Source: a virus. Taken from it: a DNA stretch of 39,422 bases. The notes under the pieces were generated by a model. That model saw nothing but the letters and a program-made list of their open reading frames with translations. It did no database searches and had not been told where the DNA came from. Positions 3,365-15,467 of the stretch are shown piece after piece. The DNA lies in the IMG/VR virus record IMGVR_UViG_3300023210_000085, positions 1 to 39,422 of that record. One strand, 5' to 3'. The position numbers and the translations under genes are program-made. Within the stretch, counting starts at the first letter, position 1; every line of letters begins with the position of its first letter.

Positions 3365-4389
3365 GATAATTCTCCTAACATGTCTTGGATAATCCAAAAA
3401 TGGTCCTCGAACATATTCGTAGGCTCAAGTTCACTTAACGGAACCCACTTTGCTTTGTCGGCGTCGTCTGATCCTTTGATCTTCGGCAGACTGGTTTGGT
3501 CTTGAAGTTTCATATAGAATGCTTGTGTGATAATCCGGCCACGTGCTGAACGATATGGATCATCGTATGTTTTCTGTGTTACGATTGATCCACGTAGGAC
3601 CGGTTCCGGAACTTTGATTTTGGTTTCTTCACGAAGTTCCCTAATCATTGCGTCAACCAGAAATTCATCAGGGTTAACAAATCCGCCGGGGATTGCCCAT
3701 TGGCCTTTGCCGGGTTCTGCTCGACGCCGGATCAAAAGGACGTGTCCTGATTGTACGACGACAGCATCAACGGTGTGTTCGATGCGAGGGTATTTTTGTA
3801 CTGACAGTTTGTACTGTTCCACAAAGTAGAACTCTCGCATCAGTTGGTCCATTGTGGGGGTTTCGCGGAAATATTCCAAAAACGTGTCAACGGCTTGTGG
3901 TACCATTCGATGGTAGCTTGCCGGATTGACGCTGAAATAAGTATCGCGGATGTCTGATGCGTTCAGGTTATCAAGGAATGATACATCTTCGAAGTCCCAT
4001 GTTGGGAACAATTTCAGATAGAATGAACTGGAATCTTTGTTGCAGCCGATCAGGCCAATTTTAGGATCATCGGGCAACTCTAGTTCTTGGCACTGAAAGG
4101 CCACGATTTCTTGAACTTGTGCGATCCATCCGTTGTTGTTGTATGTCATGTCGTCCATTGGAACAATGCCCATGCGGCCAGCGGCGTCGGCAGCGGGATT
4201 TGAATCTGCTATCATTTTGCAGCGTTCGTCGTATGTGAATGGGTTTCTGTTGGATCGTGCAGAGTTTGCTGATCCGACGATAACAAGGACGTTATCGGCT
4301 AGTTCTAAGGCACGATCAATGACACGTGTGTGTCCTAGATGCAGTGGCTGGAAGCGCCCAATGTAAACAAGCAAGTCGTATTTTGTCAT
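3361..4389 (-). CDS. nadM: Bifunctional NMN adenylyltransferase / Nudix hydrolase
   Basis: This 342-residue fusion has an N-terminal nucleotidyltransferase (GRFQPLHLGH at 11-20 contains the HxGH ATP-binding motif) that converts NMN and ATP to NAD+. Its C-terminal Nudix domain has the box GGFVNPDEF...RELREET at about 235-256, with the GX5EX7REXXEE pattern intact. The Nudix half of such fusions is typically an ADP-ribose pyrophosphatase. GGAGA lies before the ATG at 4389. A sigma70-type promoter and an overlapping late-type octamer (4650-4687) are upstream. With nadV it forms a two-enzyme NAD+ reconstitution pathway. Confidence 0.96.
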   Translation of the reverse strand: MTKYDLLVYIGRFQPLHLGHTRVIDRALELADNVLVIVGSANSARSNRNPFTYDERCKMIADSNPAADAAGRMGIVPMDDMTYNNNGWIAQVQEIVAFQCQELELPDDPKIGLIGCNKDSSSFYLKLFPTWDFEDVSFLDNLNASDIRDTYFSVNPASYHRMVPQAVDTFLEYFRETPTMDQLMREFYFVEQYKLSVQKYPRIEHTVDAVVVQSGHVLLIRRRAEPGKGQWAIPGGFVNPDEFLVDAMIRELREETKIKVPEPVLRGSIVTQKTYDDPYRSARGRIITQAFYMKLQDQTSLPKIKGSDDADKAKWVPLSELEPTNMFEDHFWIIQDMLGELS

Positions 4390-4687: not shown

Positions 4688-4696
4688 GTGTTTTCG

Positions 4697-4704
4697 TATA
4701 AATA
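4697..4704 (+). promoter_or_regulatory. Late promoter TATAAATA
   Basis: A perfect TATAAATA lies on the plus strand only four bases before the ATG at 4709. The predicted transcription start therefore falls at the start codon. Confidence 0.6.
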
Positions 4705-4708
4705 CTGT

Positions 4709-6598
4709 ATGCGTGATGTATTAGACCAATTAAAGTTCATTCAATCAGGAAAACGTGGCGGTGTGTTGTTCGAAAACATGCTGACAGAGGCCCCTAACTA
4801 CGGTGATATGTTCAATTCAGTGTTGGCTTATGTACGTGAGTACTCCCGTAGTCCAGAGACTGATCTTGAAAAGACCGGCGAGGCCATTAAGAAAGAGATC
4901 AAATGGGCTAAACAAACACTTCGTAAGAACGATAGAATTGTTTGGTATCTCCGGTATGCTAAGATGGCTATGGTCAATCGTATTTTCAGTCCAGAGCATG
5001 ATGTTTTAACCAAGGAGCGACAGAAATTTGATGCCGCGTTGGACAGCGGCGGCGTATCCGTTGGTCCAGAGAAAATAGATGCTTCCGTGATGAAATGGAT
5101 AAGAGAGCAACTTAGTCACTACATGGGTGTCGCTGTGAACGCCCCTAGTATTGCAAATTACGTGTTCCCAAAAAAGACGTTGGGCGAGGTCATCGGTGAA
5201 TTGAAAGGGTTGGAAGACGACTGGATCGAAGCTCAAGCCGAGAAAGAACGCGGCTTAGAGATCGAAGCTGGCGATGAAATCTTCATGGAATTCGAGCATG
5301 GCCATAAAGCTTGGTGGTTGCTTGATAGAAATTATTGTGATGCTGAAGGCAAAGCGATGGGGCACTGTGGGAACAATCAAGGACGATCCGGATACGACGA
5401 AAAGGTTCTAAGTTTTCGAGTAAAGGCAAACCCTGAGATGTCCGACGAAGAGTCTCCATGGATACCTCATTTGACTTTCATTCTTGATGGCAATGGCATG
5501 CTTGGTGAGATGAAAGGTCGGGCCAATGCAAAGCCTGTAGAAAGATATCACCGATACATTGTTCCGTTGTTAAAGGATCAACGTATCACGGGCATCAAAG
5601 GTGGCGGATATGATGCTAGTAATAATTTCGCACTATCCGATCTTGATCATGACACACAACAAGAATTAAAGAAGATGAAACCTGCCTTGCGTGATCTACG
5701 AGAGATCAGACGATCCGGCGACGAAGAACTATTCAAAGAGCAACTCGACATACGATCAAGTAACTCTGATTTACCAGAACCATACGATGTTGATATGGAA
5801 AAAGATGAAGTTATATTGGCTGCGTGGGCAAACATAAATCAATTATCTCAGGAATGGGAAGATATGTACAAAGCTTTACAGTTTTGGGATGATTTTGAAA
5901 CACGCTATGATCCATCGGAGATAACGAATGATGACATCTTTTATGCGCTAGAAGAGATGAACGATGATATATTGTTGAAACTAATGGAAGAGTTAGGTGT
6001 TAAACAAGAGATACATTCGGATAGATTAATTGAATTATCGGATAAGATTCACCGTCACCCTAGATATTTCTCGTTGTTCACTGATGCATTACAAACAGTG
6101 GCAGATAAATCAATGGGAAGTAATGGAACATTCAAGAAGGATTTCACATCATACATCAAATTCTTGCTTGATTATATGCCATTCAGAGTGCATGATGCTG
6201 GTCTTCGATATAACGAGGACGACATTTTTAATACTGAATTCGAATTCTATGTTGATTTCAACAATTACGTGAACTATATCGATGTCGCTTCGTCGGGCGA
6301 CGACGATGACTACGACGATATGTACTTTATCATGGATGTCAAATATGCGAGAGAATGGCAGGTACTAGATGAATACCCTGAACTACAACATTATATGCAG
6401 GATCAAGGCAAGGAAGAAGGTGTACAATTGGACCTAATTCATAAAATGATTCATGAAAAAACTGGTGGTATTCATTATCTTGAACCATCTGACATTGGCA
6501 AAGAGTTCACTGAGCTACTAACACATGGTGGTCGTCCAAGCAAAGACGAAATGGGCGATCTGTTCAATAGTCTCCGAAGAAACGCTGGCCTGATTTAG
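4709..6598 (+). CDS. Conserved phage protein with MGHCGN motif, function unknown, 629 aa
   Basis: I chose ATG 4709 over a GTG at 4688 because the latter lies upstream of the late promoter. The central part (about residues 185-320) contains a helical stretch, then WWLLD...EGKAMGHCGN, VLSFR, PHLTFILDGNG, LGEMKGRANAKP and a GIKGGGY segment. Similar motif strings occur in large phage proteins of unknown function; the Cys-Gly pair loosely recalls PcfJ-like proteins, but I would not assign that. The last third is very acidic with D/E runs. It is the only large plus-strand gene here that is not a homing endonuclease, and it appears late-expressed with little or no leader. Confidence 0.8.
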   Translation: MRDVLDQLKFIQSGKRGGVLFENMLTEAPNYGDMFNSVLAYVREYSRSPETDLEKTGEAIKKEIKWAKQTLRKNDRIVWYLRYAKMAMVNRIFSPEHDVLTKERQKFDAALDSGGVSVGPEKIDASVMKWIREQLSHYMGVAVNAPSIANYVFPKKTLGEVIGELKGLEDDWIEAQAEKERGLEIEAGDEIFMEFEHGHKAWWLLDRNYCDAEGKAMGHCGNNQGRSGYDEKVLSFRVKANPEMSDEESPWIPHLTFILDGNGMLGEMKGRANAKPVERYHRYIVPLLKDQRITGIKGGGYDASNNFALSDLDHDTQQELKKMKPALRDLREIRRSGDEELFKEQLDIRSSNSDLPEPYDVDMEKDEVILAAWANINQLSQEWEDMYKALQFWDDFETRYDPSEITNDDIFYALEEMNDDILLKLMEELGVKQEIHSDRLIELSDKIHRHPRYFSLFTDALQTVADKSMGSNGTFKKDFTSYIKFLLDYMPFRVHDAGLRYNEDDIFNTEFEFYVDFNNYVNYIDVASSGDDDDYDDMYFIMDVKYAREWQVLDEYPELQHYMQDQGKEEGVQLDLIHKMIHEKTGGIHYLEPSDIGKEFTELLTHGGRPSKDEMGDLFNSLRRNAGLI

Positions 6599-11095: not shown

Positions 11096-12214
11096 TTATT
11101 CATAATATGGCAATCGTTTGAGTATTTCCAAACTGAGTGTTCTAACGTTCTTGGCCTCGAACATTGATGCTATATCGTTTCGGATTTCTTCGTCCTGTAG
11201 CCATTCTTTCAATGTGTTGGCCTGTTTTTCCGTGTCGCATGCAAATGCCGTGATTCCCATGGCCCATGGTTTACCATCATTCTCATATACTACTGAATAC
11301 AATTTTCCATTTGGTGGACGGTCATTAATCAATACCAACCAAGGACTCGTAGACCACTTTTTTGACGCATCGGCAATACTACGTGGTACTGTTTTAAAAA
11401 CCAATTTATCCCCCGATAATATCTTATGAAGAATATCCACTCCGATGTCAACTGCATCTGTTTTGGCTAATGTGTTATCACCAGGCAATGGGTCGATGCG
11501 GGGTCGTTTTGGATATAACCAAGGTCTGCCCTCCAAAGCATCTACCTTGATTGGTACTCTATTATTCACGGCATCATCCAGCATCACGTAATGCATTTTA
11601 CGGCGATAATCAACTCGGTCAGAAATATTAACTGGATCAATCACCGAATGTTTATGAATTCGGTTGTTATGATATTTGAATTTATCAGCGCCTGATTCCA
11701 TATGATCTTCCAGAACAAACGCACATTTACTTGCGAGAAACAGTCCGGTTTCCGTGATCTTATTGTACATCAATGGTGTGTTGTGGTTGCTGGCTGGATA
11801 GTTTGGTTCATAAATCGTAGGACACCCAACCACAAAATCGTATTCATTTATCAAATGGTTCATGTATGTATCTATGCTAACTATTTTGATGTCAGCAGAA
11901 ATGCCCGGAGCGATGGAATTTATAATCGTTTTTTTGAGATGACAATCAGTGACGAAGACGATATCTGAGTACCCATCAAGTTTATCACAAAACAAAAACT
12001 CTATCGCACCGACTATGATTAATCGGCCACGGTTTGGGGCATGATCGTGCGCCATGATTTCAGTGCACAGTTCGAACGGCAACGCCACGTTGTACTCATA
12101 CGGCGCATTTGTAGGTGGACGAAAGGTGTCATCCAATATCCGCTGGTGCATTGCGTAATATGCTTCCATGGGCGGGATCAACCATACATTTGAATGTTCG
12201 AATGATGTTATCAT
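11096..12214 (-). CDS. Methyltransferase-like protein (Eco57I/TaqI type), degenerate motif IV
   Basis: The 372-residue product has the layout of an N6-adenine DNA methyltransferase. A hydrophobic motif-I-like strand RLIIVGAIEFLF lies at 64-75, a VFVTD strand near 90, and IVSIDTYMNHLINEYDFVVG leads into the position where NPPY should be, but it reads GCPTIYE at 130-136. After that come a helix and FVLED strand as in Eco57I-type enzymes, and a C-terminal TSPWLVLI...LSLEILKRLP region resembling their target-recognition end. The ATG overlaps the helicase stop as ATGA, so both are translationally coupled in the gene order of fused type ISP enzymes. Methylation activity is doubtful; a DNA-recognition role is possible. 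Confidence 0.55.
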   Translation of the reverse strand: MITSFEHSNVWLIPPMEAYYAMHQRILDDTFRPPTNAPYEYNVALPFELCTEIMAHDHAPNRGRLIIVGAIEFLFCDKLDGYSDIVFVTDCHLKKTIINSIAPGISADIKIVSIDTYMNHLINEYDFVVGCPTIYEPNYPASNHNTPLMYNKITETGLFLASKCAFVLEDHMESGADKFKYHNNRIHKHSVIDPVNISDRVDYRRKMHYVMLDDAVNNRVPIKVDALEGRPWLYPKRPRIDPLPGDNTLAKTDAVDIGVDILHKILSGDKLVFKTVPRSIADASKKWSTSPWLVLINDRPPNGKLYSVVYENDGKPWAMGITAFACDTEKQANTLKEWLQDEEIRNDIASMFEAKNVRTLSLEILKRLPYYE

Positions 12215-14487
12215 TTTACCAAGGGTGGAACCTGTGATTTAAAGACCGATAGCAAATCTTCGTCGGTTTTATCACTGAACGTATACAGTGTTTCCTCGAA
12301 TCGAATATACTGTTCCAATTTTTCAATGGTGGTCAAACCCTCCATGTACATATCAGGGAAGGTATCCCTAAGTGTGTCATCGGTTAGATTATGTGGCAGC
12401 AATAGGCTAGAATCGATATCGTTGTATATGTTATCGAAACCAGCATCATGAAGCTTTTTCAATAGCCGCATTGCTCGATGATATCCATTTTTAGCATTCA
12501 TGTCGGCGGCTTCTACTGGCAGATACACACGGCCATATGGCTTCACCCAATTAGAAAGATCGTTGACGCTGATCTCGCCGCGCTGTAAACGATCCCTATC
12601 CTCTTGGGATAATCTGAGACAACGCCCGACCGATTGCTGAATTTTGATGGCATTCATGCCTCGCGCCACACAAACTGAACTGACGCCGGGCAAATCCATG
12701 CCTTCCGAAACGATATCATAATTCAATAATACCGCAAATGGCTCTGTGCTAAATCTGTCGAAAATATAACGACGATCCTTCGCAGACGTTTCGGCAGTGA
12801 CGTTCGCTATGTATGCTTCTGGGAACAATTCAGTCAATGCTCGACGGTGATGCAACGTGATGGCTGCTCCATCAGCAAAAATGATCATTCTCGTTGGGGC
12901 GTTTCGTTCTTCATTCAGAGAAACATCATGTTCGAGGCACCGCTTGAAGTATGTCAATTGCCTATTATCCGAAGAGTTGCTTATGACGCGCAATTCGTTA
13001 GCAATGTCTTTCGTATCCACTTCATTTGTGATGGTCATTCCGGATTCGATTATCACGGGGAATACTTTCGGAGACACCATAACTGCTGCATGAATTAATT
13101 CTGCTGCCGAGATTGAATAGATAATGTCTCCAAAGATTTCTTTGTTCGACATATCGCATTCCGTTTTATTGTGCTTCATTGTAGCAGTCCAAAACAATGT
13201 TCTAGGGAATCGTTTGACCAATTCAGGGACCGACATCACGAGTGCTGTCAATCGAGCCTTTTCCTCTTCATCTTTGTGAATTGCATCAGGCACCAAGTTG
13301 TGCGCTTCATCGGCATGCCATGTATCTAGACATAGTTTCAATGCTTCTTGGTGATCATCAGAAATATCCGGATTGTTTTCGAATAATTGAATAGCCGCAA
13401 TTACTGTTGGCAAACTTGCATAAGTTGAATGAATCATCAATGGGGGATTATCATTGGAAATTTGATCCAGAAGTATCTCCATTAGTTCTACTGGATCAGT
13501 TGTGTTCATTGGGCGGGAAACTGTTTCATCTTCTTCGAAGAACACTTTTTTGCCGAAGTCGTCTCGGCTACATACGAATACCTCACGATAGGTATTTTTG
13601 CATGAGACATGTAAGATATCTTGCGTTTGGTCAATCAATGCCAGTCGCGGAGAACTCAAAAGATTTATACTATTTGGATTCATACTAAATCGATGATCGA
13701 TGTCCTTGATGAAAATTACAGTTTTGCCGCCACCCGTGGGGATAGCGATACAGCCGTGAATAGTTGGCGAAGACTGTAGCATTCGATATACTATTTGTTG
13801 ATGTGGGTACAAAACAAATTCGCTTATTGATTGTCTTGAACTCATGGTATCCATGTATCTGCGCTCACATGCGTCCCAAAAGCTGGTCCAAAAGTTATCC
13901 ATGTTGACAGTGGTCGTGATAAGATCATGCCAGCAAATGAAGTGGGTATAATCATTCAGGTTCTCGGACAAATCCTGCGCCGATGTTATGATGACCATGT
14001 GATCTTCATCATCTACCCCTAGTGAAAAATCTTTAACACTTTGACGATAGAAATTAGAAATATGATCGTCGTTATTGTCTACCCGATCTTTGGGATTTCC
14101 CTTGAATTTGAACTGGATAGTTGCCCATTTTTTAGTGACGGTATTGAAGGCCACGCCATCAACGCCGTGGTCAACGATGCCCAATGCCGTTATTGGGGTG
14201 AACTTTTCCAATCTGCATGTGTTAGTGAACATGTTTGAATTGATGTAGTATTCTCCGAACACTTCGAATCCATCACCCACGAACTGGTTGTATTTTTTGG
14301 AGTTTTTCTTCCCAAGGGCTTTGCCAGCTTTTTTGAGGTTAGCGTGGAATTCCTTGAATGATTTGATCTCTCGGTAATCGATTCCAGCTTCATGGAGGCC
14401 GGATATCATTGTGCCCACAATTAGTGGATCAGCTTGCAGATTATAACTTGAGTCGTGCGAGGTCGGTAATGCCATAAGAGGTTCCAT
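12211..14487 (-). CDS. Mrr-like nuclease fused to SF2 helicase (type ISP/UvsW-like)
   Basis: The 758-residue protein has an N-terminal restriction-endonuclease-like domain: GDGFE at 71-75, DHGVDGVA with Asp106 and Asp110, and the QxK motif in ATIQFKFKG at 122-130, which fits the D...(E/Q)xK active site. A superfamily 2 helicase follows: Walker A IPTGGGKT (249-256), DEAH (393-396), WTAT (433-436) and motif VI QSVGRCLRL (618-626). A helical tail ends the protein. T4 UvsW has no such nuclease domain. Together with the downstream methyltransferase-like gene the order matches type ISP restriction enzymes. A TTGACT/TATAAT promoter lies upstream. Start 14487 is not certain; ATG 14475 is an alternative. 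Confidence 0.85.
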   Translation of the reverse strand: MEPLMALPTSHDSSYNLQADPLIVGTMISGLHEAGIDYREIKSFKEFHANLKKAGKALGKKNSKKYNQFVGDGFEVFGEYYINSNMFTNTCRLEKFTPITALGIVDHGVDGVAFNTVTKKWATIQFKFKGNPKDRVDNNDDHISNFYRQSVKDFSLGVDDEDHMVIITSAQDLSENLNDYTHFICWHDLITTTVNMDNFWTSFWDACERRYMDTMSSRQSISEFVLYPHQQIVYRMLQSSPTIHGCIAIPTGGGKTVIFIKDIDHRFSMNPNSINLLSSPRLALIDQTQDILHVSCKNTYREVFVCSRDDFGKKVFFEEDETVSRPMNTTDPVELMEILLDQISNDNPPLMIHSTYASLPTVIAAIQLFENNPDISDDHQEALKLCLDTWHADEAHNLVPDAIHKDEEEKARLTALVMSVPELVKRFPRTLFWTATMKHNKTECDMSNKEIFGDIIYSISAAELIHAAVMVSPKVFPVIIESGMTITNEVDTKDIANELRVISNSSDNRQLTYFKRCLEHDVSLNEERNAPTRMIIFADGAAITLHHRRALTELFPEAYIANVTAETSAKDRRYIFDRFSTEPFAVLLNYDIVSEGMDLPGVSSVCVARGMNAIKIQQSVGRCLRLSQEDRDRLQRGEISVNDLSNWVKPYGRVYLPVEAADMNAKNGYHRAMRLLKKLHDAGFDNIYNDIDSSLLLPHNLTDDTLRDTFPDMYMEGLTTIEKLEQYIRFEETLYTFSDKTDEDLLSVFKSQVPPLVK

Positions 14488-14663: not shown

Positions 14664-15467
14664 ATGTATTTACACATAAATTTCAGCAACAAGTTTCTTT
14701 TGAACAAGTATACCAAGTGGTATTTTAACATAATACTAGAAGCACAATCAAGGTCTCCGTTACCTCGGGGAGAAACCGAACATCATCATGTGTTGCCTAA
14801 ATCATTATGGCCAGAGTATCAGAAGTTATCAATACACGACTGGAACGGAGCACACATAACCCATAAGGAACATTTTATATGTCATTGGTTATTGACGAAA
14901 ATGGTCAGTGGTACCGATAAAATACCTATTTACCATGCGTTTCATTGGATGTCAGTCTCGTCGCCCACACATTCAAGGAGATACACAAGCAAACAATATT
15001 CAATAGCCAAACAATATCTCTCATTGGCTAGAAAAGAGAGATTGAAAGATAAAACCAATCCATTTATCAGTAGAAAGGGACCATCAAATCATAATTGGGG
15101 AAGAAAACATTCAGCCGAAACCAAAATGTTGCAACGGATATCGAAACTTGGTGATGGCAATCCGGCAAAGCGCGATGATGTTCGAAAGAAGATAAGTGAC
15201 TCGCTGTTATCTCATTACAAAACACACGAGAATCCATTCAAACATAAAACCCATTCAGATGAAACTAAACAATTGATGCGAGATCAAATCGATCCGGATC
15301 GATTTACTGGTGACAAAAACCCAATGGCCAATCTAGAAACAAGACGAAAAGTAGGTGATACGCGACGTGGCAAATGCTGGATTACAAATGACATCACTAA
15401 TCAACTAGTTTCTAAATCCACGGCCTTGCCAGATGGGTGGAGAAAGGGTTTTACTAAGAGAAAATAA
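14664..15467 (+). CDS. HNH homing endonuclease with NUMOD3 repeats, 267 aa
   Basis: The N-terminal domain contains the catalytic pattern ETEHHHVLPKSLW (about 37-49) and ITHKEHFICHWLL, the H-H...N/H...H arrangement of phage HNH endonucleases. Two NUMOD3-like helical DNA-binding repeats follow (GRKHSAETKMLQRISK and KTHSDETKQLM), then a WITND...LPDGWRKG tail. It would nick or cut a specific site and promote its own spread. AAGGAC precedes the ATG. The stop codon ends at 15467, exactly abutting the end of the convergent DNA ligase gene at 15468. It is a paralogue of the gene at 27767. Confidence 0.93.
   Translation: MYLHINFSNKFLLNKYTKWYFNIILEAQSRSPLPRGETEHHHVLPKSLWPEYQKLSIHDWNGAHITHKEHFICHWLLTKMVSGTDKIPIYHAFHWMSVSSPTHSRRYTSKQYSIAKQYLSLARKERLKDKTNPFISRKGPSNHNWGRKHSAETKMLQRISKLGDGNPAKRDDVRKKISDSLLSHYKTHENPFKHKTHSDETKQLMRDQIDPDRFTGDKNPMANLETRRKVGDTRRGKCWITNDITNQLVSKSTALPDGWRKGFTKRK

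Follow-up and report, generated by a model that had tools for sequence, protein, structure and literature searches.

A phage nuclease-helicase and a degenerate methyltransferase homologue as a candidate derivative of a split type ISP-like restriction module

Introduction

What might a phage gain from a nuclease-helicase whose gene runs into that of a methyltransferase-like protein with a broken catalytic motif? This question is raised by two overlapping genes of the virus record IMGVR_UViG_3300023210_000085 (IMG/VR), whose complete 39,422 bases form the stretch of DNA analysed here, in the following called the window. One gene encodes a fusion of a nuclease and a superfamily 2 (SF2) helicase of 758 amino acids (aa), the other a 372-aa protein. 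Type ISP restriction enzymes, whose domain order the pair recalls, have been described as single-chain, prokaryotic enzymes. By definition, one chain unites the nuclease, ATPase, coupler and methyltransferase domains with a domain for recognition; recognition of an unmodified site is followed by ATP-driven translocation, and breaks result from nicks where motors meet (as stated in passages of PMC4666363).

Judged from sequence comparison, phages have a family of split type ISP-like modules whose methyltransferase is divided, and the window pair is a fused, methylation-dead member of it. We lean towards reading the two genes as a phage-borne derivative of such a split restriction-modification module, which would cut DNA other than that of the phage. 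Most likely, it would act independently of methylation, as a translocating nuclease directed by a dead methyltransferase. In the following, NUC denotes the nuclease, HEL the helicase, MT-C the methyltransferase part with NPPY and the recognition domain, and MT-N the half with motif I for S-adenosylmethionine (AdoMet).

Results

Searched alone, the 372-aa protein gives no convincing match (best E 0.017) in Pfam, PHROGs, NCBIfam, PADLOC or PDB sequences. An MT-C profile built without it nevertheless recovers it (E 1e-5 among 809 open reading frames (ORFs), motif IV falling on GCPTI), and BLASTP against 2592 ORFs of other loci returns solely MT-C matches at E<=1. These are L110 (4e-31, aa 124-372; motif IV NPPY), L030 with its duplicate L031 (6e-19; NPPF in L030) and L009 with its duplicate L010 (0.012; NPPY in L009); compared directly with the MT-C of L030, which belongs to a complete module, residues 41-369 align at 5e-22. 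The AlphaFold2 (AF2) model, based on 31 rows (pLDDT 75.5, pTM 0.61), is matched best by M.TaqI in Foldseek (E 2e-8, TM 0.32 over the whole chain) and by the Listeria methyltransferase 2f8l in VIA (Z 15.1, 202 residues, 4.3 Å). In VIA the gamma-class enzymes BseCI, CamA and TaqI extend through to aa 372 (about 290-337 residues, Z 12.9-14.1, rmsd mostly 7.5-9), and small Rossmann methyltransferases fit the first domain at about 3-4 Å. Both the sequence profiles and the model thus identify the protein as an MT-C of the Eco57I/TaqI methyltransferase fold, in agreement with the layout proposed in the initial annotation.

That annotation had also read NPPY as GCPTIYE in this protein. Hereof the broken motif IV stands. 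In the multiple alignments the NPPY columns are occupied by CPTI; when the protein is aligned singly with L110 or L030, an insertion of 7-8 residues opens at motif IV, and the place then reads as CP, insertion and PA, or as NYPA. Whichever alignment is taken, the NPPY of the window is broken, either by substitution to CPTI or by a motif-splitting insertion. Motif I is lost as well. Identity to L110 amounts to 29/107 in the catalytic part and 44/139 in the recognition domain, that to L030 to 25/105 and 31/139, so that by this measure neither part is clearly more eroded than the other. The four-base overlap of the two genes noticed at the outset is present as ATGA, and the 372-aa gene is probably translationally coupled to the helicase gene.

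For the 758-aa protein, the alignments bear out the proposed nuclease-SF2 helicase fusion with D...QxK and DEAH. Its N-terminal domain carries DHGVDG at aa 106 and QFKFK at aa 125; the invariant columns of a 32-row nuclease alignment, which includes the window, comprise G71, E75, E79, D106, G108, D110, Q125 and K127 (window numbering), and because of this invariance the motif is not a chance occurrence. Further helicase motifs are TAT at aa 434 and QQSVGRCLR at aa 617. A 758-aa alignment in which rows with the nuclease alone stood beside rows with the helicase alone showed signs of misalignment, and no model was built on it. The AF2 model of aa 1-220 (pLDDT 87.6) is consistent with a nuclease core, and residues 12-170 of LlaBIII form its top VIA row (Z 8.8, 134 aligned, 3.5 Å), narrowly ahead of AspBHI (8.4), Avs4 (8.0) and 1y88 (7.9), with which it ties, and then MspJI (7.7). 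Neither the lack of a methyltransferase fold in the 372-aa protein nor that of a nuclease core in the N-terminal domain, either of which would have overturned the initial annotation, was seen in the models. By hhalign, the nuclease motif D-x-G-V-D-G...Q-x-K falls on DTGID...IQCKN of L008 with E 6e-4 and a probability of only 29%. L008 is a Nitrosomonas plasmid protein with Pfam type ISP coupler, Mrr, helicase and Eco57I domains.

The helicase-family profile also points to type ISP enzymes. LlaBIII (9e-24) and LlaGI (2e-23) take ranks 1 and 2 of 113 PDB sequences, and hhalign aligns the profile with the Pfam-confirmed type ISP protein L008 at 1e-26. No UvsW-named molecule is found among the 60 best of the 113 matches. 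Together with the narrow first place of the LlaBIII nuclease, this supports the initial comparison of the gene order with that of one-piece type ISP enzymes, and the family comparison favours a restriction-like reading over a UvsW-type helicase. The features of both proteins are collected in Table 1.

Table 1. Features of the nuclease-helicase and MT-C genes, in window positions.
Feature	Position	Strand	Basis
MT-C: degenerate Eco57I/TaqI-type methyltransferase homologue with recognition domain, 372 aa	11096..12214	-	BLASTP to L030; AF2 model, PDB fold matches
Target-recognition-like domain, aa 233-372	11099..11518	-	44/139 identical to L110, 31/139 to L030
Broken motif IV, GCPTIY versus GNPPY of relatives	11810..11827	-	multiple alignments; some pairwise ones insert here
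N-lobe, degenerate motif X/I (ALPFELC...VGAIEF), aa 41-124	11843..12094	-	aligned with TPFELC...FNLEF of L009
ATGA overlap, helicase stop / MT-C start	12211..12214	-	sequence
Nuclease-SF2 helicase fusion protein, 758 aa	12211..14487	-	ORF; PHROG 7683 aa 55-215 (4e-13); PHROG 16 DNA helicase aa 213-629 (1e-33)
SF2 helicase core, ~aa 213-632	12592..13851	-	Pfam ResIII 7.5e-8, Helicase_C 6.6e-9; family profile
DEAH, motif II (aa 393)	13300..13311	-	alignment
Walker A GGGKT (aa 252)	13720..13734	-	alignment
PD-(D/E)xK (Mrr-like) nuclease core, ~aa 63-205	13873..14301	-	32 aligned rows; AF2 model; VIA
QFKFK = QxK motif, aa 125-129	14101..14115	-	Q125, K127 invariant; aligned with IQCKN of type ISP enzyme
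D106-x-G-x-D110 catalytic acid motif	14158..14172	-	invariant; hhalign with DTGID of bona fide type ISP enzyme
GDGFE nuclease helix motif, aa 71-75	14263..14277	-	G71, E75 invariant

Homologues of these parts adjoin one another in other phages. A tblastn search of phages with the nuclease domain gives 17 records at E<=10, of which only the two of Bellamy lie below 1e-5. In the Synechococcus phages Bellamy, ACG-2014f and S-CAM7, a NUC gene of about 190-200 aa adjoins a gene of 393-417 aa with NPPY, and the helicase gene is separate. Pfam Eco57I matches the neighbour in ACG-2014f (393 aa, 5e-16) and in Bellamy (417 aa, 3e-14), that of S-CAM7 merely at 0.02. The module families, which also occur in IMG/VR contigs, are PHROG 7683 (NUC), PHROG 16 (HEL), PHROG 3689 among others (MT-C), and MT-N. 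Scans of viral contigs with the nuclease alignments yield 30 loci, and the ORFs of all loci were searched with the part profiles. After removal of the window and of duplicates by nuclease sequence (L010, L015, L016 and L031; L017, equal to L003), 26 of these loci and the phages ACG-2014f and S-CAM7 make up 28 distinct nuclease loci. Viral-contig scans with the 758-aa or the 372-aa window protein singly give no relative, and a scan with window and L110 combined gives L110 again and nothing else; a scan of genome contigs gives one relative, on a 3.9-kb contig of a Bacteroidota metagenome-assembled genome.

In 25 of the 28 loci an MT-C with NPPY or NPPF is accompanied by an MT-N. This protein of about 130-195 aa has an FTP motif and motif I (DPAAGSGNF and variants; EPSCGDGQF in L032 and L037) and stops before motif IV. 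Its profile matches CamA and other adenine methyltransferases, and it aligns with the FTP/motif I region of L008 (3e-5); of the MT-C profile, the NPPY stretch is the sole part that aligns with L008. The N-lobe of the MT-C family is related to MT-N (hhalign E 1.6e-5, probability 79%), and its motif I is degenerate, reading FNLEF or similar, in most rows from outside the cyanophages. Because MT-N has motif I and MT-C has NPPY with a degenerate motif I, it seems that two proteins of the intact phage module share what is otherwise a single methyltransferase active site. The parts occur in five gene orders (HEL-MTC-NUC-MTN, HEL-NUC-MTC-MTN, NUC-HEL-MTC-MTN, MTN-NUC-MTC-HEL and NUC-MTC-HEL-MTN), in L014 with other genes between them. 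Among the profile-searched loci, nuclease and helicase are fused in the window alone.

Compared to these complete modules, the window lacks the methylating half. No MT-N is found in the six-frame translation of its 39,422 bases (best E 0.12). Of the remaining loci, L035 pairs its nuclease with an MT-C-like neighbour that reads NTPY, and its entire record of 176,134 bases holds no MT-N; L011 and L027 (records of 36 and 27 kb) have NUC and HEL and neither MT-C nor MT-N. All 25 MT-C with NPP are thus accompanied by MT-N, and neither of the two without NPP is (window and L035), a co-occurrence with p = 0.003 when related loci are treated as independent. It seems from this pattern that methylation is lost as a unit, with the nuclease and helicase motifs staying intact. 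Since L035 joins L030 in the helicase tree (100/99), its loss falls within a clade of intact modules.

The MT-C label of L035 came from a profile that contained L035, and an hhalign comparison with an alignment containing L035 is circular and was set aside. Against a profile lacking L035, hhalign gives 7e-6 with a probability of 85%, and BLASTP to L030 gives 0.02; searched over the whole record, that profile did not retrieve the MT-C of L035 at E<=0.001. We therefore regard its homology as moderately supported, not firm.

A scan with MT-N gives 352 relatives, of which the best 80 were taken. Many of these have an adjoining MT-C, without a nuclease of the PHROG 7683-type family. Having been selected for MT-N, the loci reached in this way (L039-L109) are excluded from the count of 28. 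Several arrangements extend the range of forms. L110:8007-9216 is an orphan split adenine methyltransferase whose MT-C starts directly at motif IV and overlaps MT-N; the 20-kb record holds no nuclease of the module family, and a module helicase is likewise absent from the 9.7 kb examined. In L014:7412-8621, MT-C is broken into ORFs of 288 and 81 aa, which separates the end of the recognition domain. L094:1632-4868 and L084:4475-8008 each encode a one-piece protein (1078 and 1177 aa) that joins a ResIII helicase to an Eco57I methyltransferase, and in both MT-N is a separate gene; the N terminus of the L094 protein is GIY-YIG-like (T5orf172), not Mrr-like. Second copies of MT-N and MT-C parts lie away from the module in S-CAM7 (51468-52438) and ACG-2014f (140226-141044). 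Following the nuclease-helicase pair without methyltransferase parts in L011, the gene at 3777-4328 has, by eye, the look of a LOG/SLOG-type domain. The window helicase matches 354 phage records, nearly all of cyanophages, and the cyanophage genes named helicase at L002:5070-6320, L003:586-1809 and L006:4995-6212 join the module helicases in the tree; a helicase common among cyanophages may therefore be related to a restriction motor.

To evaluate avoidance of recognition sites, we compared 24,672 strand-merged patterns with an order-3 Markov model. Two kinds of word are strongly avoided in the window, CCWGG (5 occurrences versus 41 expected) and RGATCY (no occurrence; AGATCC alone 0 versus 19 expected), which fits evasion of type II enzymes of these specificities, perhaps those of the host. 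AGNTCC, which contains AGATCC, also reaches a Bonferroni value of 0.0016. In the 176-kb record of L035 the palindromes CTGCAG (0 of 22 expected), GCATGC, GGATCC, GGCGCC and GGTACC are missing or nearly so. No asymmetric pattern with at least 12 expected occurrences is absent there, and four are found at no more than one fifth of expectation: AGCNTGC (6 of 33), CACGNNGG, ACCNGGG and ACCCTG. As a control, the 191-kb record of L033, which has a complete module, shows one such pattern, CCCCCC, and is nearly without AGATCT, TGCGCA and AGCGCT. Self-protection by site avoidance is hence neither shown nor excluded by these counts.

The gene pair lies in a neighbourhood of DNA metabolism. PHROG matches of the ten neighbours searched name an RNA ligase, an ATPase/polynucleotide-kinase-like protein, a DNA ligase, a homing endonuclease, an exonuclease and a primase; from their translations by eye, we take further genes to encode a nicotinamide phosphoribosyltransferase, an NMN adenylyltransferase and a ribonucleotide reductase. 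For the DnaB-like helicase, the closest matches are those of the Pseudomonas jumbo phage PA5oct and its kin (49.8%), and in list order the DNA ligase and the RNA ligase are nearest to those of Caulobacter phage Cr30. An HNH homing-endonuclease gene (14664..15467, plus strand) lies immediately upstream of the nuclease-helicase gene. Amid mostly minus-strand genes, 4688..6598 (plus strand) holds an ORF of 636 aa that has no PHROG match. No tRNA genes are found in the 39,422 bases.

Discussion

In the mechanism that we propose, the 372-aa protein would still bind a DNA site via its recognition domain and load the SF2 motor, which would translocate on ATP. As in type ISP enzymes, the Mrr-like nuclease would then nick or break the DNA upon stalling or collision of motors. 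No product recognised in the window is able to methylate the site, so the cleavage would be aimed at DNA other than that of the phage, that is, at the host or a competing phage. The own DNA would be spared in another way, such as base modification, a methyltransferase encoded outside the fragment, site avoidance or the timing of expression.

At the two end positions of NPPY, the multiple alignment places C and I in the window protein; in LlaGI we take N1018 and Y1021 to be these two ends. The flipped adenine of LlaGI is stacked on Y1021 and held by N1018, flipping takes place without AdoMet, and the nuclease-dead D78A variant retains translocation (passages of PMC4872093). Recognition and motor are thus separable from methyl transfer and cleavage in LlaGI. 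With C and I at the corresponding positions, adenine flipping as such is probably lost in the window protein, and reading of the site would fall to the recognition domain. Cleavage of DNA by the pair is inferred.

Several findings weigh against this reading. The fold match of the nuclease is modest, with a VIA Z of 8.8 compared to a usual best of 7-8 and ties with other restriction nucleases; Foldseek finds nothing at E<=0.001 for the nuclease model (best E 0.083), the nuclease-family profile has no match in PDB sequences at E<=1, and Pfam Mrr_cat_2 stays below its cut-off (E 0.0019). Searched alone, the window helicase matches RadD and RAD25 first, so that its link to type ISP enzymes rests on the family profile. 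The window sits on long branches (nuclease 5.86, helicase 2.29) and has no supported place in the trees. The coupler domain PF22240 is found in neither window protein at E<=1 (L008 is positive at 2e-51 in the same library), although a diverged coupler could escape such a search. No asymmetric pattern of the type ISP form stands out in the window beyond parts of the CCWGG and RGATCY words. Finally, the record probably covers only part of a larger phage genome, so that MT-N or a second MT-C could lie outside it.

Alternatively, the nuclease-helicase could process branched or broken DNA of the phage itself in a UvsW-like repair or recombination role, with the methyltransferase-like protein as DNA-binding cofactor. 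The neighbourhood would suit such a machine, with DNA ligase, RNA ligase and the ATPase/polynucleotide-kinase-like protein close by and exonuclease, DnaB-like helicase and primase further off. So would the spread of helicase relatives through mostly cyanophage records, the three such helicases in the tree that have no adjoining module nuclease or methyltransferase (that of Bellamy lies next to the module), the pairs of L011 and L027 and the first matches of the window helicase alone. However, the family profile is nearest to LlaBIII and LlaGI, with no UvsW-named molecule among its 60 best matches, a recognition-like domain is kept, and 25 of 28 loci have both methyltransferase halves; we thus regard a repair machine as unlikely.

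Somewhat less likely still is a decaying remnant, in which methylation is gone and the module is on its way out, without present function. In line with decay, two catalytic motifs are lost in MT-C, MT-N is absent from the record and the branches are long. Yet neither reading frame is interrupted, the two genes still overlap by four bases, the motifs of nuclease and helicase remain whole, and conservation of the recognition domain is roughly on a par with that of the catalytic part. No close relatives of both window genes were found for a comparison of purifying selection. Least probable of all is a complete, active restriction-modification system with MT-N, and perhaps a second active MT-C, in the missing part of the genome, as the probable incompleteness of the record and the extra MT-N or MT-C copies of S-CAM7 and ACG-2014f would allow, given that MT-N lies inside the module neighbourhood in all 25 complete loci, that the window's own MT-C has no NPPY, and that L035 combines NTPY with the absence of MT-N from 176 kb.

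Extending the preferred reading, a phage-borne restriction-module derivative, beyond the window, we tentatively suggest a new class of restriction machine that is common to marine and jumbo phages. Neither methyltransferase protein of this class would have both catalytic motifs, one being the AdoMet half and the other carrying NPPY and recognition, and together they would serve a translocating nuclease. Some lineages, including that of the window, would have dropped the methylating half, leaving a dead methyltransferase to read DNA for a methylation-independent, sequence-guided weapon. This wider proposal is more speculative than the reading of the window itself.

From the sequences, what appears new is that cyanophages and other viral contigs carry the module parts as adjacent, unfused genes, which are arranged in five orders. 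No paper on a phage type ISP-like or split-methyltransferase module was found among the open-access titles and abstract openings listed, which is not proof that none exists. A precedent for a phage-carried restriction-modification system is phage P1, cited in the reference list of PMC12707154. In phages, type ISP functions would be spread over exchangeable genes whose order and fusions vary, and the methyltransferase itself would be divided between two of them. Such modules offer natural variants for studying what links site recognition, methylation, motor and nuclease to one another. The joint loss of NPPY and the AdoMet half predicts a restriction motor that works without its methylase, and raises the question how such a phage spares its own DNA.

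Comparison with known systems

The four-gene modules of Bellamy, ACG-2014f, S-CAM7 and the IMG/VR contigs share with the window homologous, neighbouring genes for nuclease, helicase and MT-C. They differ in that nuclease and helicase are unfused, MT-C has NPPY or NPPF and MT-N is nearby. The window thus encodes NUC, HEL and MT-C together and has neither the NPPY/F form of MT-C nor MT-N. With the gamma-class adenine methyltransferases M.TaqI, M.BseCI and CamA, the 372-aa model has the fold and the C-terminal recognition domain in common, whereas the catalytic motifs are gone from the window protein.

CglI of Corynebacterium glutamicum (R.CglI and H.CglI) likewise combines a nuclease and a helicase-like ATPase in an ATP-dependent restriction complex (according to PMC5737866), but R and H are separate proteins there, and the likeness is one of design only. 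The Mom-nuclease fusions of jumbo phages are also predicted phage nucleases directed against host or superinfecting DNA (passages of PMC7824862), with other modification chemistry and other proteins.

The closest comparison is that with the type ISP enzymes LlaGI and LlaBIII, with which the window shares the order of N-terminal Mrr-like nuclease, SF2 motor, gamma-class methyltransferase fold and recognition domain. The nuclease is of the Mrr family by motif and fold, not by curated score, the motor is of the type ISP lineage via the family profile, not via the window sequence alone, and a recognition domain follows the methyltransferase, with homology to L110 and L030 to or near the C terminus and fold matches to aa 372. 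In contrast, the enzymes are single chains (1578 aa in LlaBIII compared to 1130 aa in total in the window pair), whereas the window has two overlapping, phage-carried genes, no detectable coupler and no active N6-adenine methyltransferase by its motifs, motif I and motif IV (NPPY) both being lost. In conclusion, the window pair, being split, with no coupler found and with a methylase that appears dead, is strictly speaking not a type ISP enzyme; in its restriction half, it probably works like one.

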